From positions 1 through 50,141 of the forward strand of contig JAAYEK010000066.1 in assembly GCA_012728785.1 (NCBI GenBank): a DNA stretch of 50,141 nucleotides, written 5' to 3'. Below are positions 2,536 through 23,810 of the stretch, piece by piece (position 1 is the first letter of the stretch; every line of letters begins with the position of its first letter). Both the position numbers and the translations under genes were made by a program. The notes under the pieces are model-generated. The model was not told the origin of the DNA. It did no database searches and worked only from the letters and a program-made list of their open reading frames with translations. The DNA is from Bacillota bacterium (GTDB lineage: Bacteria > Bacillota > UBA4882 > UBA8346).

Positions 2536-2934
2536 TTGCGAGAGGATATTGAGGGAAACAATAGTTTTATAGTTGATTATGTTTCACCAGATGAATCTTG
2601 GATAGTTGTTTTTTAAGATAATGGGGAAACGGGATATTTATATTTAAGTGTTTGGAAAAATGGCGAGTTTGCCGGGATAGTTGATCATTTATGGATTTAT
2701 AACCAAATATCACCACCAATTAAGGAGTGTAAGGAAGTTTTTATTATTTGGTTTGATGATTCATCTCGGGCCGGTTTAGTTGTTGATGATGAATGTTGGG
2801 GAATTTTCGATATAAAAACGAAACGAAAAATGAATGCGCCTCGTAATGGGAATTGTATAGTGTCTATTGAACGTAAGTATTGGGATTATGGTTTGACGGA
2901 AAACGATGGGGAAGTGTTAAAAACATTTTTGTGA
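2536..2934 (+). pseudogene. DUF2251-like gene interrupted by an in-frame TAA
   Basis: A GGAGG site (2525-2529) followed by TTG at 2536 opens a frame that would run 132 codons to the TGA at 2932. Codon 27 (2614-2616) is TAA, where the surrounding motif, VVF-stop-DNGETGYLYL, suggests an original Glu (GAA to TAA). The DNGETGYLYL motif resembles the FEDDGETGYFYA-type motif of DUF2251 proteins, whose function is unknown. The frame is otherwise intact with natural codon use, so inactivation looks recent. Family assignment is tentative. Confidence 0.5.
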
Positions 2935-2943
2935 GGTATAAAC

Positions 2944-3411
2944 ATGAGTATTCGAAAAGCTGTACAACAAGATTTTGATAGTTGGCTTGAAATGAGAATG
3001 TTTCTATGGCCTGATTGTCCGGAACAAGAACATCGGGATGAAATGAAAGCGATTATTGAAGGAAAGCCAATTGGTGAAGAGCTCGAGACGGAAGTTCTTG
3101 TTTATCAGTTAGAAAATGGTAAATTAACCGGTTTCATAGAATTGTCATTAAGAGAAGAGCTTGATGGGTTTAGAACATCACCCATTGGATATGTCGAGGG
3201 ATGGTATGTAAGTGAAGATTATAGATTGAAGGGAATTGGGCGCGAGCTCATTAAAGGAGCCGAATATTGGGCAACAGAGAAGGGTTGTAAGGAGATGGCT
3301 TCCGATGCTGAAAAAGATAATGGTATAAGCATAGAAGCCCATAAGAAGCTTGGGTTTAGAGAATATGGCTCGAATGAGGATGAAGTTCTTTTTAGAAAAC
3401 GGATTCAATGA
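2944..3411 (+). CDS. aminoglycoside 6'-N-acetyltransferase-like GNAT protein
   Basis: A 155-aa single-domain GNAT acetyltransferase. It carries the signature of AAC(6')-type enzymes: LWPDCPEQEH near residues 20-29, the core EGWYVSEDYRLKGIGREL (strand beta4 plus the acetyl-CoA pyrophosphate loop RxxGIG, about residues 82-99), the ASDAE segment, and a C-terminal HKKLGFREY. Enzymes of this group acetylate the 6'-amino group of aminoglycosides, but chromosomal homologues may have other substrates. GAGGT precedes the ATG at 2944. The stop overlaps the following broken GNAT fragment. Confidence 0.8.
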   Translation: MSIRKAVQQDFDSWLEMRMFLWPDCPEQEHRDEMKAIIEGKPIGEELETEVLVYQLENGKLTGFIELSLREELDGFRTSPIGYVEGWYVSEDYRLKGIGRELIKGAEYWATEKGCKEMASDAEKDNGISIEAHKKLGFREYGSNEDEVLFRKRIQ

Positions 3412-3662
3412 TGAATATAAAAGACAAAGAAATACAATATATTTATTCAGGGGTTCAGGTTAATAATGTGCATGCAATTAAATTTTGGGATAGAATGGGT
3501 TACAAAATTTATGACGATCCCATGAACCAAGGAAATATTATTGTACTTCAAATGACCAATGAAGGTATAGAACATTCATGGAAAGTAGAAGTACAAATAG
3601 GAGTAAAACCAAGAGAACAAGAATGTTTTAGAAAAGCTAGAGGTTATATGTCCGACATATAG
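3408..3662 (+). pseudogene. C-terminal fragment of a second GNAT acetyltransferase
   Basis: The 84-codon frame begins in an ATGA overlap with the AAC(6')-like gene. Its first half, with GVQVNNVHAIKFWDRMGYK, is the closing helix-strand of a GNAT fold (typically VxxNNxxAIxFYxKxGF). The acetyl-CoA-binding core that should precede it is missing, and the last 30 residues look unrelated. It is best read as the 3' remnant of a deleted acetyltransferase gene joined to new sequence. No enzyme activity is expected. Confidence 0.6.
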
Positions 3663-3740
3663 TTAACATGTCATCTCCGTTTCTTGTGTAGGTAATCCTT
3701 ATCGTTATACGCAATAGCCCTAGAAAGTGAGGAAATCAGT

Positions 3741-4475
3741 ATGCAATATAAAGTATTAAAAAATATACCTAATCACGTGAAACAACAAGATGAAATTACA
3801 TTAAAATTATGGCCGGAATTTATGCTTCATAATCCGGTTTCAAATTCAAATTGGCACAAACTATTTGAGATTTTTCCCGAATATCAGTTTTCTTTAGAGT
3901 CAAATGGTGAAATTATTGGCGCTACCAATTGCTTACCTTATTTTTGGGATAAGCCGTTTGAGGATCTACCTGAAAGAGGATGGGATTGGGTATTTGAAAA
4001 AGGAATCAATGATAAAATAAAAGGAATTAAAGCAAATATTTTAAATGGTCTTCAGATTGCTGTAAATAAAGACTATCAAGGAAAAGGAATAAGCTCCATA
4101 ATCTTAAAAGAAATGATTTCCGTTGCTCGTGATAACGATTTTAAATATATAACTATACTTGTAAGACCAAGTTTAAAAAGTAAATATCCATTAATACCGA
4201 TAGATAATTATTTAAAATGGAAGAGAGAAGATGGTTTACCATATGACCCCTAGTTAAGAGTTCATGTTAGAATGGGCGGAAAAATAATAAAACCTTGTCA
4301 TAAAGCAATGTATATTCCGGGTACTATTGCCGAATGGGAAGAATGGACTGATATGAAATTTTATGAAACAGCTGATTACATAGTTCAAGGCGCATTAGCG
4401 CCTGTTAAGATAAATATTGAAGAAGACATTGGAGAGTATGTAGAACCAAATGTTTGGGTATTACATGAGGTGTAA
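3741..4475 (+). pseudogene. GNAT acetyltransferase interrupted by an amber codon
   Basis: Two adjacent frames, 3741-4253 and 4272-4475, are the same reading frame separated by a single TAG at 4251-4253. The bridged product (244 aa) is one GNAT protein: acetyl-CoA loop YQGKGISS around residues 112-119, then PYDP-stop-LRVHVRMGGK. Homologues I recall read DPWLRVHxRxGG here, so the TAG most likely replaces Trp (TGG). TAG serves as a normal stop elsewhere in the window (for example hepT and csfB), so recoding is unlikely. The truncated 170-aa product keeps the cofactor loop but loses the last third. Confidence 0.7.
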
Positions 4476-4612
4476 ATATATGAAAATTGAGCGGAATGCG
4501 TAGATAGTTTTATTAAAGGTTTATGAAGCTGGTATAAAAAACAAATCAAGTCTTGAAGTGGCACTATAAGGTTTGAATTGTTTTTAAAGAGATTACCATG
4601 GAAGGAGTATAA

Positions 4613-5560
4613 ATGAAATATCTATTTTTGATTTTTTTAGGTATTTTTATGACATTTATTCTCGTCATAGGTATCATGATCGTAGTTCCACCACCCAAAT
4701 CGATTGCTAAATTGGAATCAATTTCAGATCCATTTCGTACGGTAGATTTTTCAAAAATGCCGGATATACAATATTATATGGCGCGGGATGGTTCCAAGTT
4801 AGCCTATCACGAATACCCGAACAAATTAGCAAAGCAAATTGTTGTGTTAGTGCATGGATCATCCGGATCCAGTCGTCAGATGCATCCGCTTGCCGAATAT
4901 TTACAAAAACAAGGTATGACAGTTTATTCGCTAGATATTCGCGGTCATGGTGATTCGGGTCGGAAAGGCGATATCCAATATATAGGTCAACTCGAAGATG
5001 ATATGGAAGATTTCGTTAATCAAGTATTGAAGCATCAAGAAGCCACACTGGTAGGATTTTCTCTTGGCGGCGGTTTTGTTCTGCGATTTGCAGGCAGTGA
5101 GCGACAAACCCTTTTCAGTCGCTATATTTTGCTTTCTCCATATATGGGTTATAATTCACCAACTTTGAAGCCAAATAATGGTGGATGGGCTGAGACGAGC
5201 TATCCTAGATTTATTGGAATTCTATTACTTGGACCGATTGGGGAAAAAGTGTTTGGTAACTTACCGGTAATAACATACGCAATAAATCCCGAGAATCAGC
5301 ATCAAGTTTCTCAAAATTCATTCAGACTATTACGCAATTTTGGACCGGGTTTAGACTATAAATCAGTTATAGCTTCGATCAAACAACCTTTAAAAGTAAT
5401 AATCGGGGAAAATGATGAGTTGTTCAATGCTCAAGCATTTCCACCCTTATTTAAGGAGGCAAGCGCTAAGGTTATTATCGTGCCGGAGACAGGCCACATT
5501 ACATTGACTACGAGTTTGTCCGGGATTTCTGCTGTTGCCAAAGGAGTAATTGAAGATTGA
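4613..5560 (+). CDS. membrane-anchored alpha/beta hydrolase
   Basis: A 315-aa serine hydrolase of the lysophospholipase/monoacylglycerol-lipase type. An N-terminal hydrophobic segment (about residues 3-25) should anchor it in the membrane with the catalytic domain outside. HGSSG (81-85) forms the oxyanion region, GFSLGG (148-153) the nucleophile elbow with Ser150, GENDELF the acid region and ETGHI the histidine. DIRGHGDSG at 108-116 is typical of this branch. GGAAGGAG precedes the ATG. The next gene starts inside its 3' end, implying co-transcription. Substrate unknown. Confidence 0.8.
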   Translation: MKYLFLIFLGIFMTFILVIGIMIVVPPPKSIAKLESISDPFRTVDFSKMPDIQYYMARDGSKLAYHEYPNKLAKQIVVLVHGSSGSSRQMHPLAEYLQKQGMTVYSLDIRGHGDSGRKGDIQYIGQLEDDMEDFVNQVLKHQEATLVGFSLGGGFVLRFAGSERQTLFSRYILLSPYMGYNSPTLKPNNGGWAETSYPRFIGILLLGPIGEKVFGNLPVITYAINPENQHQVSQNSFRLLRNFGPGLDYKSVIASIKQPLKVIIGENDELFNAQAFPPLFKEASAKVIIVPETGHITLTTSLSGISAVAKGVIED

Positions 5561-6281
5561 CATCGGCAATGCCAAATGCTTAAGAAAAGCCGAGAAAGAG
5601 TTAAAAGACAGATATGATGATATGGTAGAAGATTTGCTAAAAGAAGGTAAAGTATCAAAATATAAATGCGTACCGGATTATAAAGGAAAAAGTTTTATAT
5701 CAAGCGCTTTAACAATTAGTGCTAGCGGAGAATCACTTTTTGAAGAAACTATTAAAATTTGGTTAACGTTTGAGGTAATTATGATGATGAAGGATACCAA
5801 AGAAAAGCTTATCAAGGTTTTAGTCCAAGGCCGTTTAGACTGTTATGTCAGTAAGACCGAAAATTATAATCCGTATATTAAATCGGATCTTTATGATTGG
5901 TATTTTGAAAAGATAATAGGGGATCTGCGATTTACAGATTCATACAGAGGATTTAATCCATATGGCGGAGTTGAATATGTTTTTGTTAAAGGCGACTCTT
6001 TGCCGGTTTGGTCTTGTGATTACGTTGGATATGTAATAAACCAAAGGACTTTTAATGAAAATGAGATATATGGTTTTTTGAAAGAGGCAAGGGGAAAACA
6101 CTTATTAGAATGTGGCGGTTGTTTGTTTAGTAACTATGAATATAAACTGGACAACTTGTTTTATAAGCTTTTATTTCAAGAGATAAATAATGAAGTGTTA
6201 GAAAAAGCAGATATATATTATAAGGATTGTTTAATTGCTCAACATATAGCTTCGGGGAAGATTAGGAAAGAATTAGCATAA
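5550..6281 (+). CDS. DUF5680-like protein of unknown function
   Basis: A 243-aa protein starting at TTG 5550, inside the end of the hydrolase gene; AAGGAG at 5541-5546 is close but usable, and no ATG with a better site exists nearby. From about residue 100 the pattern resembles DUF5680: DLYDWYFEKIIGDLRF, then a short VWSCDYVGYV strand, FLKEARG, and an IYYKDCLIAQHIASGKI ending. The N-terminal 100 residues are lysine-rich and not recognised. No catalytic motif, signal peptide or membrane helix is seen. The family has no established function. Confidence 0.6.
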   Translation: MKIDIGNAKCLRKAEKELKDRYDDMVEDLLKEGKVSKYKCVPDYKGKSFISSALTISASGESLFEETIKIWLTFEVIMMMKDTKEKLIKVLVQGRLDCYVSKTENYNPYIKSDLYDWYFEKIIGDLRFTDSYRGFNPYGGVEYVFVKGDSLPVWSCDYVGYVINQRTFNENEIYGFLKEARGKHLLECGGCLFSNYEYKLDNLFYKLLFQEINNEVLEKADIYYKDCLIAQHIASGKIRKELA

Positions 6282-6365
6282 AAAAGAACTTATTATGGAA
6301 TATATCGCGCAACATCGCATTTCCTCAAAGAATAGTGTTGAAATAAGGTTAAAGGAGTTCTTAAA

Positions 6366-6872
6366 ATGCCTCAAATATTCAATGAGAAGAATATATCCTT
6401 CCAGCTTAGACACTCGCCGATTCCGGAATTTGCTTGGCATACCAGTCCAAAGTTAGCGGAAATAGTTAAATCGAAACATTTACATTTTGATTTAAGATCG
6501 CTTGATCCCGGCAAATATTCTTACCCATATCATTTTCACAGAAATGCGGAAGAAATCTTTGTAATCTTATCAGGGAAAGTTACCCTTAGAACACCGGATC
6601 AGTATGTTGAATTATCCGAAGGGGATCTTGTCTTTTTTGAAATGGGCCCCCAGGGCGCGCATCAACTTTATAATCATACCCAAGAACCCTGCAAGTACCT
6701 GGATATTCGTACCAATATTGGGTTGGACATTTGTGAATATCCTGATTCCGGAAAAATAAATATTTTACCATTTCAAGAAGTATATGAACAAATTGATAGA
6801 GTTGATTATTACAAGGGAGAAGAAAAGGTTAGTGAAAAGTGGGCTAATAGAATGGAGAAACCTAAAAAATGA
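6366..6872 (+). CDS. cupin-domain protein
   Basis: A 168-aa single-cupin protein. Motif 1 is YHFHRNAEEIFVILSG (residues 57-72), giving two His and a Glu as metal ligands; motif 2 is GDLVFFEMGPQGAHQLYN (about 85-102), supplying the third His. Such proteins bind a metal and act as isomerases, dioxygenases or sugar-binding proteins. AAAGGAG lies upstream of the ATG. It is the last gene of the accessory plus-strand run; a short run of coding-like sequence at 6937-6987 (MIKDIIIKAGNE) after it appears to be debris. Confidence 0.8.
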   Translation: MPQIFNEKNISFQLRHSPIPEFAWHTSPKLAEIVKSKHLHFDLRSLDPGKYSYPYHFHRNAEEIFVILSGKVTLRTPDQYVELSEGDLVFFEMGPQGAHQLYNHTQEPCKYLDIRTNIGLDICEYPDSGKINILPFQEVYEQIDRVDYYKGEEKVSEKWANRMEKPKK

Positions 6873-6994
6873 TCGCTACGGTGATTTCGCCAATCCGGAT
6901 GACGCATTATAGGAATACATAGAAAGGCTTGGATTTATGATTAAAGATATAATTATTAAAGCCGGTAATGAGTTGAAGAAACAGTAAATCAACC

Positions 6995-8638
6995 CTAAAC
7001 CAACACTAACTCCTTCTCCGGCTCTTTCTTTCCTTCCAATCCGGGGAACTTTACCGGACTGGCGACCACATCAACCAACGCCGGTTGGTCGCTATTAACC
7101 GCTTCCCTCAAAACATTTTCCAAATCATCGGGACGCTCCACCCGGAATCCTTTGCCGCCGCAAGCCTCGGCGAACTTGGCAAAATCGGGATTAGTCAAGG
7201 AAGTTAACGATGGATCCATCTGTTCCAGTTCCATCCGGTCTTTTTCCATCGCCAGATAACCATTGTTCATAACTGCAATCGTAATCGGAACATGATAACG
7301 GACGGCGGTTAAAAATTCGCCCAAGGACATTGCCAACGAACCGTCACCGACCAAAGCGAAGATTTGGCGGTCCGGTTGGGCTAATTTAGCGCTGATGGCA
7401 GCGGGAAGCCCGAATCCCATCGTCCGCCAGGAACCGGAGATTAACACTTCTTGAGCGCTGCCATTGAAAATCCGATTGAACCAAACAGTATGATCGCCCA
7501 CGTCAAGAACGATTATCCCATCTGGGGCCGTAACTTTTTCCATGGTTTTAACTAAATATCCCGGACTAATCGGAGTCCCGCCAGAGGTTATTTCTGTAGC
7601 TATTCGATCTAACCATTGTTCCCGTAGATAGGATAACCGCTCCACCCATGTTCTCTTGTCCGTTTCCTGAATACCACGGGTTAATTCCGGTAAAAGAGCT
7701 TTCAAATCACCAACCACACCATACTCCACCTGAGTTAGCTTGCCGATATTATCGGGTATGGCATCAATTTGGATAATTCTAGTTTGCTTGGAGGTATATT
7801 TCTCCGGCCACCAAGTTGCTCCTACAATTAGTACCAAATCGGCTTCAAGCAACATAATCGTCGTTGCCTCGCTACCTCCCTCGCCCAAACCACCCATCAT
7901 TAGAGAAAAATCCCCAGGGACTACTCCTTTGGCTGGTAAGCTGGTACAGATTCCGGCCTGCCATTTTTGGGCCAATTCAATCAATTGCGGGCTTAAATTT
8001 CGAGCGCCTCGTCCCGACAAAATAGCCGGCCGTTGGGCTTCGTTCAGTCTTTTTACGGCTCCGGAGATTACCTCCGGAGAGGACTGGGCCATGGTTCTTA
8101 GATGAGGTTCCAGAGGACGGATTCCTTCTTCGGTGGGAATTTGCCAAACATCTTTGGTAAAACAAACATGGGCGACTGTTCCTTGAGTTAAGGCTTTCCG
8201 TAGAGCCTTTACCGTAACATCATTACAAGAGTCGGGAACACTTACCAATCCCGAGTAGTCGGTTACCGCTGCTATTAATAAATGCTGGTCAATATATTGC
8301 TTATAATTGGTTCCTAAATTAAAACTATCCACTTGGCCGGTGATGGCGAGAACCGGTGCTCGGTCACTCTTAGCGTCGGCCAACCCATTAATAAGATTAG
8401 CTACTCCCGGCCCGCTGGTGGCCGTGCAAACACCGATTCTACCGGTTAGTTTGGCTTCGGCTGAGGCCATTAGAGCTGCGGCTGACTCGTGTTTAACACT
8501 GATAAACCTTATTCGGGGATGCCGGTTGATAGCGTCCACAAAAGGCAAAATAGCATCACCGGGAATTCCATAGATATTTTGAATTCCCCATGCATCCAGT
8601 TGTTCAACAAGATAGTCGGCTACGGTTCTTTGGGACAT
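6995..8638 (-). CDS. thiamine-pyrophosphate enzyme, pyruvate oxidase-like
   Basis: A 547-aa three-domain TPP enzyme of the PoxB/YdaP branch of the acetohydroxyacid synthase superfamily. The N-terminal Pyr domain has YGIPGDAI and the catalytic glutamate in KHESAAA (E51). The middle FAD/DHA-type domain spans about 190-320. The C-terminal PP domain carries GDGS followed by a conserved NN for Mg-diphosphate. The C-terminus (about 20 residues after VDVVASP) is shorter than the membrane-binding tail of E. coli PoxB, so it is probably soluble. Acetolactate-type activity cannot be excluded. It is monocistronic, with a hairpin in its leader. Confidence 0.8.
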   Translation of the reverse strand: MSQRTVADYLVEQLDAWGIQNIYGIPGDAILPFVDAINRHPRIRFISVKHESAAALMASAEAKLTGRIGVCTATSGPGVANLINGLADAKSDRAPVLAITGQVDSFNLGTNYKQYIDQHLLIAAVTDYSGLVSVPDSCNDVTVKALRKALTQGTVAHVCFTKDVWQIPTEEGIRPLEPHLRTMAQSSPEVISGAVKRLNEAQRPAILSGRGARNLSPQLIELAQKWQAGICTSLPAKGVVPGDFSLMMGGLGEGGSEATTIMLLEADLVLIVGATWWPEKYTSKQTRIIQIDAIPDNIGKLTQVEYGVVGDLKALLPELTRGIQETDKRTWVERLSYLREQWLDRIATEITSGGTPISPGYLVKTMEKVTAPDGIIVLDVGDHTVWFNRIFNGSAQEVLISGSWRTMGFGLPAAISAKLAQPDRQIFALVGDGSLAMSLGEFLTAVRYHVPITIAVMNNGYLAMEKDRMELEQMDPSLTSLTNPDFAKFAEACGGKGFRVERPDDLENVLREAVNSDQPALVDVVASPVKFPGLEGKKEPEKELVLV

Positions 8639-8911: not shown

Positions 8912-9265
8912 TTGAACAATTTTATGAAGAATTTCTTGAATCAGAACAAGCAAAATGACTTTGAAATCGGTAATTTTGAAGACGAACGCATCTCCTGGAA
9001 CCCGGCTCCCGCTAGTCCTGGAGATACAGTCGAAATCAAATACCACGGCCTACTCAAAGACTCCGGCGCTGACTCCGTATTTTTGCATTTTTCCTTCGAT
9101 AGCTGGAATTCTCCCGCGCATACGGTCCGGATGGACCGAGTTGGAGACAACTTTATTACGGAGGTAAAGGCTAACGGTAATCATGAATTAAATTTCTGTT
9201 TTAAAGATGGCGCTGCCAACTGGGATAATAACAGTGGCGCTAACTGGCTTATGCATTTACAGTAA
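8912..9265 (+). CDS. stand-alone CBM25 starch-binding protein
   Basis: A 117-aa protein that is essentially one carbohydrate-binding module. From about residue 35, VEIKYHGLL, FLHFSFDSW, a central strand pair and FCFKDGAANWDNNSGANW match CBM25, a family that binds alpha-glucan (starch/glycogen) through exposed Trp residues. AAGGAGGG at 8898-8905 selects the TTG at 8912; the ATG at 8924 is too far. There is no signal peptide and no catalytic domain, so it would act in the cytoplasm, perhaps on glycogen. A terminator follows, making it a single-gene unit. Confidence 0.78.
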   Translation: MNNFMKNFLNQNKQNDFEIGNFEDERISWNPAPASPGDTVEIKYHGLLKDSGADSVFLHFSFDSWNSPAHTVRMDRVGDNFITEVKANGNHELNFCFKDGAANWDNNSGANWLMHLQ

Positions 9266-9414: not shown

Positions 9415-10566
9415 ATGAAAAAAGCGATTAATCACCGGATAATGCGGTCTAACAACAAGCGTCAGATATTAGAGTTTATCCGTAAAAATGGGCCGTCAAC
9501 TAAAAGGGGAATTGCCCAAAAATTAGGTATCAGCATTACTACAGTGGCAACTTTTATCAACGAGCTGTTGAATGAAGATAGAATTACCGCTTTCGGTAAT
9601 GCGGCATCCAGCGGAGGACGAAAATCGGAATTATATCGCCTCAACCCGGATTCTTTGTATGTAATTGGAGTGGACCTCCAGGTCGATCGGATAATAATGC
9701 TCTTAATAAACTTACAAGGAGAGGTTCTTGGGGTCGAAGAGGAAAAATTTAATCGTAGTGATGAATGGGAAATAGCTTCGCTCTTACGTCAAACTATCAC
9801 TAAAATCTGTGATTCAAACAAGATCCCTTTGGCAAAGATTTCAGGTATTGGAATTGGAGTTCCGGGTATTGTCAACCATCAGACCGGAATAATTGAATTT
9901 GCCCCAAATTTGGGATGGAAAAATGTAGATCTTCCGATGATATTACCTGTGGATTTACCGGTTATCGTCGAGAATGAGGCTAAAGCCGCAGCCGTCGGTG
10001 AAGCTACATTTGGTTCCGCCCAAGGGTATGCCAATGTTATATATGTTTCGCTGGGGTTAGGAATCGGTACCGGTTTAATCTTAAATAATAATTTGTTTTA
10101 CGGCCATAATTTTCTAGCTGGAGAATTTGGCCATATGGCGATAGTCCCCAATGGACTGCCTTGCCGATGCGGTAAAAAAGGTTGTTGGGAGGTTTACGCG
10201 TCAAATAATGCAGCCTTAAAACTATATCAGGACTATTCCGGAATAGAGTTGAGTTCTTATGATGAACTGTTAAAAGCCTTATTTAAGGAAGACCCGATTG
10301 CCATTAAAGTCTTTGCTGAAATCGTCAATTACTTAGGTTTAGGTATTGCTAATCTTATTAATGGCTTAAACCCGGAGATGATCGTTATCGGTGGGAAAAT
10401 AACCGAAGCCGATAGTTTAATTCATTACCAACTTTTAAAAGTAATCAAGGAAAAATGTTTTGAATACTCATACCGGGGTGTCTCGCTTCAATTTTCCGGT
10501 TTAAGAAACCGGGCAACCGCTTTAGGGGTTGGCAGCTTAATGATTGACAGTTTATTATACAATTAA
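9415..10566 (+). CDS. xylR: ROK-family xylose repressor
   Basis: A 383-aa ROK repressor. The winged helix-turn-helix occupies residues 1-70 (STKRGIAQKLGISITTVATFINELL). The sugar-kinase-like ROK domain follows with a GIGIGVPGIV phosphate-binding loop, ENEAKAAAVGE, and the zinc/signature motif CRCGKKGCWE near residues 255-264 after GEFGHM. XylR proteins repress xylose genes until xylose binds. It sits directly upstream of, and likely in one operon with, a xylulokinase and a xylose isomerase-like gene. A glucose-responsive NagC-type role is possible but less likely in this context. Confidence 0.88.
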   Translation: MKKAINHRIMRSNNKRQILEFIRKNGPSTKRGIAQKLGISITTVATFINELLNEDRITAFGNAASSGGRKSELYRLNPDSLYVIGVDLQVDRIIMLLINLQGEVLGVEEEKFNRSDEWEIASLLRQTITKICDSNKIPLAKISGIGIGVPGIVNHQTGIIEFAPNLGWKNVDLPMILPVDLPVIVENEAKAAAVGEATFGSAQGYANVIYVSLGLGIGTGLILNNNLFYGHNFLAGEFGHMAIVPNGLPCRCGKKGCWEVYASNNAALKLYQDYSGIELSSYDELLKALFKEDPIAIKVFAEIVNYLGLGIANLINGLNPEMIVIGGKITEADSLIHYQLLKVIKEKCFEYSYRGVSLQFSGLRNRATALGVGSLMIDSLLYN

Positions 10567-10592
10567 AAAATAAAATGAAAGGAGTTGAGGAG

Positions 10593-12092
10593 TTGGGCTA
10601 TCTATTGGGTTATGATATCGGAAGCTCATCAATTAAAGCATCCCTGGTTGAGATTGATTCAGGGAAAACTAGGGCGTCGGCAGTATCTCCTACAGAAGAA
10701 ATGGAGATTCATGCTCCCGAACCCGGCTGGGCCGAACAAGATCCGGAGGAATGGTGGAAACATATTAAGCTGGCTACAGCTAAGATCCGGAACCAAGCAG
10801 GGATCGATCTAAAAGAAGTAAAAGCGGTTGGAATTGCCTATCAAATGCATGGTTTGGTCTTGGTAGATCGTAACCGTAAGGTTTTACGGCCGTCGATTAT
10901 TTGGTGCGACAGCCGTGCGGTTCAGATTGGGGAGGAAGCCTTTAAATCGTTAGGCAAGGATAAATGCCTTCAAACTTTACTTAATTCTCCAGGTAACTTT
11001 ACCGCTTCCAAACTAAAGTGGGTCCAAGAAAATGAACCCGAGATCTATGCTCAAACCTATAAAGCGATGCTGCCGGGTGAATATATCGCCATGCGGATGA
11101 CTGGAGAAATCATTACCACGCCTTCCGGTTTATCGGAGGGGATCTTGTGGGATTACCCCAACCAAAAACCGGCTGACTTAGTCCTTGATCATTATGGAAT
11201 TTCGCCGGAATTTCTTCCAGAAATAAAGCCGGTCTTTTCAATCCAAGGCGCTTTAACAGCTGAGGCAGCGGCTGAATTGGGATTGATGGGTCAAACACCC
11301 GTTTCGTACCGGGCTGGAGACCAACCTAACAACGCTTTATCATTAAAGGTGATGGAGCCGGGTGAAATCGCTGCTACCGCAGGGACGAGCGGTGTGGTTT
11401 ACGGGGTTGGGGACCAACCCAATTATGATCCTCTTTCCCGGGTGAATACTTTTGTCCATGTTAATCATAGTCAGAACAGCCCCAGATATGGGACTCTACT
11501 CTGTATCAACGGCACCGCCATCTTAAATCGCTGGCTTAAAAATAACTCGATGAGTAATTTCAGCTATAAGGAAATGGATCAAATGGCGGCCAGTGTTCCG
11601 GCAGGGTCTAATGGATTGAGTATTTTACCTTACGGTAATGGGGCCGAACGAACTCTTGGAAACAATAATATCGGCGCGTCAATTCATGGTTTGGACTTTA
11701 ACATCCATAGTCAATCTCATTTGGCCCGCGCGGCCCAAGAAGGAATTGTCTTTTCATTAAACTACGGCATGGAAATCATGGGCCAAATGGGGATTAAGAT
11801 CTCAACCATCAAAGCCGGATTTGCCAATATGTTTTTGAGCCAGGTCTTTGCGGAAGCCTTTGCTACTATTAGTGGCGCTCGGGTAGAGCTTTATAACACC
11901 GATGGTTCGCAAGGGGCGGCACGAGGCGCCGGTATTGGGGCGGGAATTTATCAAGACTATCAACAGGCTTTTAAAGGGGTTGAACTTGTTAAAACCATTG
12001 ACCCCAATCAAATGTTAACCGAGGCTTATCAAGAAGCCTACCGAAAATGGGTAAAAATATTAAGTAGCCAACTAAAACCAATAAATAATTAA
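10593..12092 (+). CDS. xylB: xylulokinase
   Basis: A 499-aa FGGY carbohydrate kinase that phosphorylates D-xylulose to xylulose 5-phosphate. Near the N-terminus, LGYDIGSSSIKASL is the ATP-binding phosphate-1 motif; HAPEPGWAEQDPEEWW and GIAYQMHGLVLVD are typical of XylB; the ATAGTSGVVYG and DGSQGAARGAGIGAG segments form the C-terminal nucleotide site. I prefer TTG 10593 because AAAGGAG (10578-10584) precedes it by eight bases; the ATG at 10575 would overlap that site. It lies 26 bases after xylR and 12 bases before the isomerase gene. Confidence 0.92.
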   Translation: MGYLLGYDIGSSSIKASLVEIDSGKTRASAVSPTEEMEIHAPEPGWAEQDPEEWWKHIKLATAKIRNQAGIDLKEVKAVGIAYQMHGLVLVDRNRKVLRPSIIWCDSRAVQIGEEAFKSLGKDKCLQTLLNSPGNFTASKLKWVQENEPEIYAQTYKAMLPGEYIAMRMTGEIITTPSGLSEGILWDYPNQKPADLVLDHYGISPEFLPEIKPVFSIQGALTAEAAAELGLMGQTPVSYRAGDQPNNALSLKVMEPGEIAATAGTSGVVYGVGDQPNYDPLSRVNTFVHVNHSQNSPRYGTLLCINGTAILNRWLKNNSMSNFSYKEMDQMAASVPAGSNGLSILPYGNGAERTLGNNNIGASIHGLDFNIHSQSHLARAAQEGIVFSLNYGMEIMGQMGIKISTIKAGFANMFLSQVFAEAFATISGARVELYNTDGSQGAARGAGIGAGIYQDYQQAFKGVELVKTIDPNQMLTEAYQEAYRKWVKILSSQLKPINN

Positions 12093-12104
12093 GGAGGTTA
12101 TCAA

Positions 12105-13235
12105 ATGGAAAAATCATTACATGCAATCTGTAGGTGGACTTTTAATCCGGGTAAAGGAGGATTTGTCCCCGGTAACATGCGGCCGGCTTGGAGTTCCGAC
12201 AAGCTGGACGTTGTTGGTATTATTAAAATCATTAAAGAAAAAATCGCTCCCCGGTTACCGGAAAATGTACAGCTTGGTTTGGAGCTTCACTACGACACCG
12301 AGGTAAACGAGGGAACCGCTGCGGCCGTGGCCGACGCTTTAGTCGACGCTAAAATGTATTTGGCGATGATTACCCCTGGCGCCCATAGCCATTTCGGATA
12401 TGGCGGTATTTGTTCTTTAGACCCTAAAGAACGGGAGGCTGCTGAGGCCCTTGGCACCAAAACCGTTGACCTAGCCTATGGACCACTGAAGAAGGCTTGG
12501 CATCCTGATGCGGACAAAGCCCCTTCATTTGTTCTTTGGAACGGTTCTTATGGGTATGACATGGCTAGCATTGCTATTAAGGCCATGTATCAAAACCTAA
12601 AAGAAAGCATCGCCAAATTATGTAAGTATGAAGCTTCGAAAGGTAATGCCTTATATATCGGAATCGAACCCAAACCCAATGAAGGTCATCCGGCAATGCT
12701 TCTTCCAACCGTTGCTTCCGCTTTGCTATTATTCTGGAGACTCGAAGAGGAATTTGGCGTTTCCCGTCAAAAGAAAGGTGTCAATAAGGAGTTCGGTCAT
12801 TCGGAGATGATCGGTTTAGACCATGTTTACGATACCGTTGAAGAACTTGATAATAACGCCATGGTTCACATGCACCTCAACAGCCAAGGTTATAATGACG
12901 GAATTATTTTAGGCGGTCCCGGAAAATACGATATCGATCATGGTACCAGAATTAATGGTATGAATATCGCCATTGCCGGATTAATCGCCAATGCTGGTTT
13001 TAACCGTTGGAAGGGCCATGATATGGTGCCTAGAGCTTATGACAATGAAGCTCAAGCAACCGATCGGATTGTTCGCAGTATATTGAGTTGGGAAGCCTGC
13101 GCCCAGGCTGCCCAGAAACTTAATAAGGAAAAATTAATGGACCTGTTGATCCAAAGGGAAACCGGAAAAGCCGAAGACTTAATCCGGGATTCCGTAGGTC
13201 AAGCATTCCAATTCTTCAAAGAGATGTATAAGTAA
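12105..13235 (+). CDS. divergent xylose isomerase-like TIM-barrel protein
   Basis: A 376-aa sugar isomerase of the xylose isomerase-like TIM-barrel superfamily. It keeps E188-P-K190-PNE, E229 and H232 and the MIGL segment of class I xylose isomerases, so the barrel and one metal site are recognisable. It lacks the WGGREG motif (here LWNGSYGYD, 144-152), and the metal-ligand aspartate of HIDLN is replaced by His257 in HMHLN. Immediate linkage to xylR and xylB argues for D-xylose to D-xylulose conversion, but another aldose substrate is possible. AAGGAGG precedes the ATG. A very strong terminator follows. Confidence 0.8.
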   Translation: MEKSLHAICRWTFNPGKGGFVPGNMRPAWSSDKLDVVGIIKIIKEKIAPRLPENVQLGLELHYDTEVNEGTAAAVADALVDAKMYLAMITPGAHSHFGYGGICSLDPKEREAAEALGTKTVDLAYGPLKKAWHPDADKAPSFVLWNGSYGYDMASIAIKAMYQNLKESIAKLCKYEASKGNALYIGIEPKPNEGHPAMLLPTVASALLLFWRLEEEFGVSRQKKGVNKEFGHSEMIGLDHVYDTVEELDNNAMVHMHLNSQGYNDGIILGGPGKYDIDHGTRINGMNIAIAGLIANAGFNRWKGHDMVPRAYDNEAQATDRIVRSILSWEACAQAAQKLNKEKLMDLLIQRETGKAEDLIRDSVGQAFQFFKEMYK

Positions 13236-22045: not shown

Positions 22046-23470
22046 TTATCGGTTCTCCTTAACCACGGCAATCTTGTGACCGGAGTTTAAACCCCGGACG
22101 ATCCCTCCGGATAAGATCGTCTGTTTGATGCTTTCAACTTCATCTTTTCCAATCAATTCACCTGGAACAAGCAGCGGGACTCCGGGTGGGTAGGGGGCGA
22201 TAATATTTGCCGCTACTCTACCAATTGCTTCTTCCAGTGAAACCCAAGTTTTTGAGGCAAAAACCCCATCCCGAACCGGTATAACTTGGGCTGGTATTGA
22301 TGGCGGCATCCAATTGATCGGAGCTATTTTTCCTTGTTTGCGTTTGGAAATGGCGGTAACAGCCTGATAAAGAGCTTCCAAATCCGCCCGGTCCTGCCAG
22401 GGCCCAATCAATAAAGTAACTTGATTTAGATCGGCATATTCGGGTTGGATCCGAAAGTCAGTCTCTAAAATATGCGCCGCCTGATATCCGGTTAAACCTA
22501 AAAGATTAAAATTAAGGGTAATTTTCCAAGGGTCAATAACCCGGTCTTCAGCTAGGGGACCTTCCAAAATCCGGGCACCATCGCAAGCTGCTATGCGTGA
22601 GCGGACCTTCATTAACTCGGGTAACCTTTCTCGGAATAAACGCCGTCCTTTTTCGGCTAAAAAGCGTCGGTTAGAATCGAGTGATGCCAATAAAACATAT
22701 GAAGGACTGGTGGTTGTGATTAAGTCGAGTCCCTGTTGAAGTTGATCCGGCTCAATCCTTGCCGTATTCACGTGAAGCATTCCGGTCTGGGTGAAAGACC
22801 CCATCATTTTATGGGTGCCATGGATCCAGAGATCCGCCCCCTCGTAAGCGTTATATCCGCTTATTCCCGACCATTCCAAATGGCCTCCGTGAGCTTCATC
22901 GACGAGTAGGATTCGGTCGGCGCTCAACTCCCGGTAATCCCGGATCCGGTTGGCTATACCCTGATAGGTCGGGTTGGTAATGAGCAGTCCTTTATAATCC
23001 GGGTGTTCCTTTATTTTGGCCCGTAAAGCAGATTTTTTTAAACCTCCGGGAATCCCCCATTCCGGCAAGTAATCGGTTTCAATAAAAATCGGAGTTAAGC
23101 CGGCGATAGTAATTCCTTTAATTACTGAAAGATGACAGTTGCGGGAAACTAAAATTTTATCACCCGGTGCGAAAATTCCGGTCAACGCGCCGATAATTCC
23201 TTGTGAAGCCCCTTGAGTAAGAAAAAAGCTTAGGTCGGCATCAAAAAAATTAGCCGCCAACATCTGCGCTTTTTCAAGCGCTCCCCACCAATCAAAGGCT
23301 GAAATCTCAGTCAAATCAATTTTCGCCACAATATCCGATTGAAACCATTCTGGTTCTAAACCAGCGCCCCTTTTATGTCCGGGAGTATGGAAAGGCGCTA
23401 GTGGTCTCTGAGCACACCGTAACAATTCTTCAAAAAGCGGCGCTTGATTTTGGGAAAACTCAGTTTTCAT
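22046..23470 (-). CDS. yaaO: Orn/Lys/Arg decarboxylase family protein YaaO
   Basis: A 474-aa fold-type I PLP enzyme of the arginine/lysine/ornithine decarboxylase family. PFHTPGHKRG (about 26-35) is the N-terminal signature; LVDEAHGGHLEW contains the PLP-ring aspartate and histidine, and WIHGTHKMMGSFTQ the Schiff-base lysine. Substrate is not predictable from sequence; in B. subtilis YaaO lies at the same place. The open frame extends to 23623, but the extra 51 residues are low complexity and overlap the csfB terminator, so ATG 23470 is preferred although no clear ribosome site precedes it. Confidence 0.87.
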   Translation of the reverse strand: MKTEFSQNQAPLFEELLRCAQRPLAPFHTPGHKRGAGLEPEWFQSDIVAKIDLTEISAFDWWGALEKAQMLAANFFDADLSFFLTQGASQGIIGALTGIFAPGDKILVSRNCHLSVIKGITIAGLTPIFIETDYLPEWGIPGGLKKSALRAKIKEHPDYKGLLITNPTYQGIANRIRDYRELSADRILLVDEAHGGHLEWSGISGYNAYEGADLWIHGTHKMMGSFTQTGMLHVNTARIEPDQLQQGLDLITTTSPSYVLLASLDSNRRFLAEKGRRLFRERLPELMKVRSRIAACDGARILEGPLAEDRVIDPWKITLNFNLLGLTGYQAAHILETDFRIQPEYADLNQVTLLIGPWQDRADLEALYQAVTAISKRKQGKIAPINWMPPSIPAQVIPVRDGVFASKTWVSLEEAIGRVAANIIAPYPPGVPLLVPGELIGKDEVESIKQTILSGGIVRGLNSGHKIAVVKENR

Positions 23471-23537
23471 TACTAAACTTAATTCGACAAGTATTTTCCG
23501 CTTCCTTTTTCTAAACAACCATAGTTTTATTAATCGA

Positions 23538-23553
23538 CCCCGGCAAGCCGGGG
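23538..23553. repeat. GC-rich palindromic hairpin between csfB and yaaO
   Basis: CCCCGG-CAAG-CCGGGG, a perfect 6-bp GC stem with a 4-base loop, stands out in the AT-rich leader. No T run follows on either strand, so it is not a terminator. Confidence 0.4.
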
Positions 23554-23593
23554 GAGTAAAGGGAAAATTAGTCTTACTTGGTCTGAGGGTAAA

Positions 23594-23614
23594 TAAAAAA
23601 AGGCTATTCAGCCT
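23594..23614 (-). terminator. terminator overlapping the csfB stop codon
   Basis: On the minus strand AGGCT-GAAT-AGCCT is followed by T7. The csfB stop codon TAG lies inside the hairpin, so transcription of csfB is largely insulated from yaaO. Confidence 0.6.
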
Positions 23615-23810
23615 CTTCTTCAAATCCAGTTATTTTTCGATTTAATTTTTCCCAAAACCGGTGACAACTATCGATCCAATGTTGATATTCAAATTTGTCA
23701 GTTTGGCATTTCACCAGACTCGTTTCACAATTCTCACAGAGGTATTGCCCTAAAATTTTCAAACCTCCCGAAGTAGAGGCGCCGCAACTGAAACACTCCG
23801 GGTTATCCAT
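23604..23810 (-). CDS. csfB: CsfB/Gin, anti-sigma-G-type zinc protein
   Basis: A 68-aa protein with two CxxC pairs (C6/C9 and C25/C28) spaced as in Gin (CsfB), the forespore inhibitor of sigma-G in Bacillus. The Zn-binding fold is followed by a helical tail. ATG 23810 with GGAGG eight bases upstream is favoured over TTG 23816. Position between bofA and yaaO is conserved in Bacillus, which supports the call despite low sequence information. It implies a sigma-F/sigma-G sporulation programme. Confidence 0.82.
   Translation of the reverse strand: MDNPECFSCGASTSGGLKILGQYLCENCETSLVKCQTDKFEYQHWIDSCHRFWEKLNRKITGFEEEAE

Follow-up and report, generated by a model that had tools for sequence, protein, structure and literature searches.

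A gene in the place where xylA belongs, with a product that resembles xylose isomerase (XI) and has an altered metal site, raises the question of which sugar the product isomerises, if any. The gene lies in the window, which is the whole stretch of 50,141 nucleotides analysed here. Its product is most likely a D-xylose isomerase that has a hybrid metal site and forms a class apart, a predicted activity to which we assign a probability of roughly 0.7. The gene and its immediate surroundings are listed below.

9415-10566, forward strand: ROK-family regulator with a winged helix (PF00480, 208 bits; PF13412, 36.4 bits)
10575-12092, forward strand: XylB-like FGGY kinase of 505 residues (TIGR01312, PDB match and motif alignment)
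12091-12098, forward strand: ribosome-binding site AAGGAGGT, strong, 6 bp before the isomerase ATG, read from the sequence
12105-13235, forward strand: xylose-isomerase-like gene, an open reading frame of 376 residues and a real gene

The three genes are tightly packed, the kinase gene starting 8 bp after the ROK gene and the isomerase gene 12 bp after the kinase gene. A hairpin and T-run, seen by eye in the sequence, lie 3' of the isomerase stop codon, and a phosphoglucose isomerase gene follows on the opposite strand. The region upstream of the ROK gene was scanned for palindromes and gave no convincing operator. In front of the ROK gene is a 117-residue protein with a starch-binding CBM53 module (8912-9265, forward strand; 33 bits against a cut-off of 27.6), to which an ORF in another locus of the set is related (L025, 1622-2050). 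The window also holds an Orn/Lys/Arg decarboxylase-family gene (22046-23623, reverse strand), and GH43 matches occur at three places in its own genome.

The isomerase does not pass the models of the recognised enzymes. It scores 70 bits on the class I XI model TIGR02631 against a cut-off of 447, and the models for class II XI (TIGR02630, cut-off 533 bits) and rhamnose isomerase RhaI (TIGR02635, cut-off 531 bits) have no match in its own genome at 1e-5. Because the class I and class II tests failed, a protein that probably works like XI is filed in neither class. Identity to the XI rows of the alignment is 15–26%. Profile-profile comparison matches it to class I XI with a probability of 99.3% over 265 columns, and to RhaI with a probability of 0.8%. 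Membership of RhaI was ruled out by this score and by the Glu that occupies the bridging position (E229, not Asp).

In the tree, 22 rows of the window family form a clade (support 100/100) whose stem is 3.6 changes per column long, apart from class I, which forms its own clade (99/97). Class I, class II, and a group of short class-I-like proteins of 344 residues stand together opposite the family (90/75). The join of all four has a support of 100/99 with rhamnose isomerases chosen as the outgroup, and the long branches leave the exact branching order unsettled. Compared with XylA classes I and II and with rhamnose isomerases, the family is a clade of its own beside the two XI classes. The protein might instead be a true class I XI in which drift has changed a ligand and a pocket residue. 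No NCBIfam family other than TIGR02631 is matched at E <= 0.001, and all 46 members scanned match it; PF01261 (AP_endonuc_2) is matched at E <= 0.1 by 27 of the 46, the window protein not among them. The position of the family outside the grouping formed by the two XI classes and the short group, its long stem, and the fixation of the loop changes and replaced residues within it make such a drift very improbable.

For the fold, an AF2 model built from a 46-row alignment (pLDDT 86.8, pTM 0.89) was used in place of a single-sequence prediction, which reached a pLDDT of 36.8 and was set aside. The model matches class I XI with a Z of 33.3 over 321 residues (rmsd 2.4) and Pseudomonas stutzeri RhaI with a Z of 31.6. 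Its low-confidence blocks, residues 11-20, 191-200, 231-240, and 261-280 (means of 57–63; 58–61 for 261-280), include active-site stretches. The predicted fold is an XI-type TIM barrel, a likeness that by itself shows no function.

The metal site was read from a MAFFT alignment of 51 rows that includes both XI classes and rhamnose isomerases, and from profile-profile comparison with class I XI. The comparison rows are 6 class I, 6 class II, 7 rhamnose isomerase, 6 short-group, and 22 family sequences. Invariance was counted over 81 sequences, the window protein and the best 80 of 135 relatives. The XI residue numbers and roles given are taken to be those of Streptomyces rubiginosus; the numbering of the aligned Streptomyces row runs three above them. 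In a large XI survey, the metal and pocket residues of a class II XI come in the same order as matched here (PMC9891696). The codons concerned are as follows.

12384-12386, forward strand: H94, at the place of XI pocket residue F94, changed; H in 81/81
12666-12668, forward strand: E188, at the place of XI E181 (metal 1), from the alignment; E in 81/81
12789-12791, forward strand: E229, at the place of XI E217 (bridges both metals); E in 81/81
12798-12800, forward strand: H232, at the place of XI H220 (metal 2); H in 81/81
12873-12875, forward strand: H257, at the place of XI D245 (metal 1), the altered ligand position; H in 81/81
12897-12923, forward strand: insertion of nine residues, approximately 265-273, between H257 and the D-x-D, from the alignment
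12930-12938, forward strand: D276-I-D278, at the place of XI D255-x-D257 (metal 2); both D in 81/81
13020-13022, forward strand: D306, at the place of XI D287 (metal 1), kept in the alignments; D in 81/81

Six of the seven class I metal ligands therefore have a counterpart (E181, E217, H220, D255, D257, and D287) and D245 does not. The preliminary description of this DNA had rightly noted an altered site, with HMHLN in place of HIDLN and a ligand Asp changed to His. It was also right that EPKPNE is kept, that the E/H pair survives (as E-x-x-H, E229/H232), and that WGGREG is absent; WNGSYG stands there instead, with the Trp retained. Its picture of two lost ligands was wrong. The D287-type ligand that it gave as apparently lost is D306, which aligns in both the 51-sequence and the profile-profile alignments, and which may have been overlooked by eye because the nine-residue insertion precedes the D-x-D. 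Two features went unmentioned there, namely the retained D255/D257 pair, where KYDID of the window protein aligns with KYDQD of XI, and the replacement of Phe94 by His94. A sporadic mutation or a sequencing or assembly error at H257 is ruled out, as every one of the 81 sequences carries His.

At the D245 place, Asp is found in all 12 class I and class II rows, and His in 7/7 rhamnose isomerase, 6/6 short-group, and the 22 family rows. The E217 place is Asp in 7/7 rhamnose isomerase rows and Glu in XI and the family. Judged by these alignments, the family combines a His ligand of the rhamnose isomerase type with a metal site that otherwise follows XI, H257 being the putative metal-binding residue. 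The insertion is modelled with low confidence, so that D265, which lies within it and is Asp in 81/81, could also serve as a ligand. His in place of D245 would be expected to move the metal preference of site 1 towards Mn2+, Co2+, or Zn2+ over Mg2+. Asp at this place is confined to classes I and II, and His is shared by the short group and the rhamnose isomerases, so that Asp may be the later state.

W16, F26, H54, W137, and K183 of XI have identical aligned counterparts that are invariant in 81/81, the ring-opening His54 being kept as H62. D57, the second acid of the ring-opening dyad, aligns with T65 at a variable place, and the neighbouring E66 is invariant. The F94 place is Phe in 6/6 class I, 6/6 class II, and 7/7 rhamnose isomerase rows, and His in the family. 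This His94 in the pocket weakens the xylose reading and strengthens the alternative of another aldose.

Among the closest known systems is class I XylA (TIGR02631; e.g. S. rubiginosus and Thermus thermophilus). The window protein shares with these enzymes the TIM barrel over 321 residues, the counterparts of the six metal ligands and of H54, W16, F26, W137, and K183, and a locus in which a ROK regulator, xylA, and xylB come as a set. It differs from them in its identity of 21–26%, in His at both D245 and F94, in the nine-residue insertion before the D-x-D, and in WNGSYG for WGGREG. Class II XylA (TIGR02630; Escherichia coli) has the same aligned ligands except D245, at 15–18% identity, and the window protein is without its N-terminal extension. 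RhaI (TIGR02635; P. stutzeri, 3m0x/3itl) has a similar fold (Z 31.6) and the His at the D245 place; its identity is 16–17% (two RhaI rows), and it has Asp at E217 and Phe at F94 where the window protein has Glu and His. The short 344-residue group (L122 and its kin) shares the His at D245, EPKPNE, the D-x-D, and the D287 counterpart, but it is a separate clade at 21–23% identity (two rows) with Trp at the F94 place.

The family is widely distributed. Among GTDB species genomes, 135 relatives were found by a scan; the best 80 of them, which were analysed, are 66–82% identical to the window protein and come from at least ten phyla. By record title, these best 80 comprise 35 Planctomycetota, 17 Bacillota, seven Fibrobacterota, and four Atribacterota; Calditrichota, Myxococcota, and Omnitrophota with two each; and Latescibacterota, Spirochaetota, and Thermodesulfobacteriota with one each. 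Eight had no phylum in the lookup, with KSB1, Hydrogenedentes, and Aerophobetes among them by title. All but one of the 80 are titled as MAGs, the remaining record being titled 'Bacterium isolate'. The Atribacterota members are 69–70% identical to the window protein.

The gene is under purifying selection: between the window and its nearest named relative, L025, pN is 0.11 and synonymous change is saturated. An inactive or non-catalytic relative, or the product of a pseudogene, could be suspected from the one metal ligand and the one pocket residue that are unlike those of classes I and II. Such an origin is extremely improbable, given this selection, the invariance of all proposed ligands in 81/81, and a place beside a kinase gene that is kept across phyla.

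Gene context was surveyed at the 80 loci of the best 80 of 135 relatives. Ten loci with less than 1.5 kb of upstream sequence were left unjudged, which gives 70 judgeable loci. In 56 of these 70 (56/80 overall), an FGGY kinase is encoded on the same strand no more than 4 kb away. At 47 loci it is a kinase of the window type directly upstream (at most 300 bp, same strand), and at five a kinase of this type lies 1.3–3.7 kb upstream. In three Atribacterota loci the isomerase is followed directly by a different kinase, and L096 has a distant FGGY match upstream at 22% identity. The other 14 judgeable loci, each read for at least 1.5 kb upstream, are without such a kinase nearby. L050 and L055 are both without the kinase; in L050 a Gfo/Idh/MocA oxidoreductase and a second AP_endonuc_2 TIM-barrel protein adjoin the isomerase (2791-4980), and an ORF of L055 (10388-11116) falls in the same cluster as that oxidoreductase. 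In L096, genes for a GH4 glycosidase and a PfkB kinase come directly after the isomerase (6132-8454).

Several loci tie the family to xylose more closely. The kinases of two Atribacterota loci, L054 and L056, were scanned on the XylB model and score 589 and 595 bits against a cut-off of 380. Genes for xylose-type transporters adjoin the isomerase in L055, L057, and L075. The XylF-like proteins of L055 (Atribacterota) and L075 (Fibrobacter) score 348 and 370 bits, just below the cut-off of 390, and the transporter ATPase of L055 scores 667 bits, just below its cut-off of 699. In L057, the transporter, a ROK gene, the isomerase, and the kinase stand in one row. An alpha-xylosidase gene is directly upstream of the isomerase in L098 (614 bits, cut-off 606). 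Among 11 Atribacterota matches on short loci (L173-L183), the end of a XylH-like gene is directly upstream in five, a XylF gene is downstream in one, and a canonical-type kinase adjoins in five. Thermus and Streptomyces, too, have a ROK regulator, xylA, and xylB grouped together where their canonical class I enzyme is encoded. Gene context thus points to D-xylose.

The partner kinase is less clear-cut. It scores 313 bits on the XylB model TIGR01312, which does not pass the cut-off of 380, yet this is its best model, and no protein of its own genome matches XylB better. Its best solved relative is the E. coli xylulose kinase 2itm (4.5e-55). The QMHG motif is common to it and E. coli XylB, and RAGDQPNNAL of the window kinase stands against GGGDNAAGA in the E. 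coli enzyme. The tree groups the window kinase with the L-xylulose kinase LyxK (91/90), with long branches. Kinases linked to the isomerase form a clade of their own (14 rows, 100/99) with a changed GDQ region, and are possibly a distinct kinase subfamily. The partner kinase, like the isomerase, is thus divergent, so that another substrate is conceivable.

The preliminary description had already offered, as its alternative, an isomerase for another aldose that works with a xylulokinase. The sugar could be, e.g., D-lyxose, D-ribose, L-xylose, or a 6-deoxy sugar, with the divergent kinase phosphorylating the resulting ketose. His257, His94, and the W-N-G-S-Y-G loop would then reflect that substrate. 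The proposal draws on the metal-1 His as a rhamnose isomerase trait, the pocket His in place of Phe94, the fold match to RhaI, which is nearly as good as that to XI, and a kinase that falls below the XylB cut-off, has a changed GDQ region, and groups with LyxK among long branches. Nonetheless, the metal bridge is Glu as in XI and not Asp as in rhamnose isomerases, the profile match to RhaI is nil, and NCBIfam and the PDB both give a xylulose kinase as the best match of the kinase. The genes of Atribacterota members with the same catalytic residues adjoin those for canonical XylB and for XylFGH-like proteins, and that of one further member adjoins the alpha-xylosidase gene. Hence this alternative, for which His94 and the divergent kinase speak, is rather unlikely. 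A fuller form of it, in which the isomerase and divergent kinase act as a pair matched to some sugar that is not D-xylose, in a two-enzyme aldose-to-ketose-phosphate route of uncultured anaerobes, is a tentative suggestion that we also consider unlikely. Such a pair would combine the hybrid xylose/rhamnose isomerase metal site and the pocket His with a kinase changed in step.

The window's own genome is 99.4% complete and has no other match to the window protein or to either XI family model, so that a search for a canonical xylA in it found none by these two models. Class I XI was searched in this genome and 49 other carriers, and none of the 50 has a match over the cut-off; class II XI is over the cut-off in one of the same 50. 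The other genome sets were searched for class II only. Among 61 related genomes, 21 have the family gene, and the gene is present in 21 of the 29 genomes of the window's class; G040, from outside this class, has only a partial match (27% identity, E 3e-5). Class II XI is over the cut-off in one of the 61, G049, itself without the family gene (1/40 of the relatives that are without it). Among 50 Atribacterota genomes, 11 have the family gene, one by a partial match, and class II XI is over the cut-off in none, including the 39 without the family gene. One of these 39, G135, has an 80-bit XI fragment over 58 positions, which may be a cut canonical XI. The absence of canonical xylA from the carriers is weak evidence, because class II XI is rare also in genomes without the family gene and completeness is given for the own genome only.

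The short class-I-like protein of 344 residues is present in 11 of the 50 carrier genomes (189–229 bits) and could be the xylose isomerase of those 11. Its loci include L122 (1495-2529), L108, L109, L112, L116, and L124. In L122, the one locus examined for neighbours, the gene adjoins those for a PIG-L deacetylase and an FAD oxidoreductase, with no xylulokinase. The short group may therefore do something else.

Taken together, the suggestion in the preliminary description of a distinct and poorly characterised class of XI is the best-supported reading, given the family's own clade, its XI fold, the xylose-type neighbourhoods, and the lack of a canonical xylA in the own genome. The analysis itself shows the gene, how it is conserved, which residues correspond, the predicted fold, and the neighbouring genes. 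The metal binding, chemistry, and substrate that we infer on this reading follow the residue roles and hydride-shift mechanism of xylose isomerase. The isomerase would hold two divalent metals, metal 1 through E188, E229, H257, and D306, and metal 2 through E229, H232, D276, and D278. Ring opening would fall to H62, in a pocket lined by K190, W145, and W11, plus F20, whose XI counterpart comes from the neighbouring subunit. The metals would then carry the C2-C1 hydride shift to give D-xylulose, from which the XylB-like kinase encoded upstream would make D-xylulose 5-phosphate. Isomerase and kinase would be controlled by the ROK (XylR-type) regulator.

Xylose isomerase is a major industrial enzyme, and the window family, apparently undescribed, is probably a third lineage of it; among open-licence full text, no description of the family was found by title or abstract. 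The large XI survey sorts XI into two types; to be kept in it, a sequence had to carry an Asp (D297 in PirXI numbering) and to have the length of type I or type II (PMC9891696). With D297 of PirXI matched to D245 by order, members that bear His would fail the survey, because the Asp is required. Atribacter laminatus is described as growing on xylose (PMC7736352). If the reading as a D-xylose isomerase is true, a third lineage, present in at least ten phyla and almost only in metagenome-assembled genomes, would explain how its carriers could use xylose where canonical xylA is not found. Natural variants on both sides, with Asp or His, would also offer a direct test of the role of the metal-1 ligand in the XI fold.
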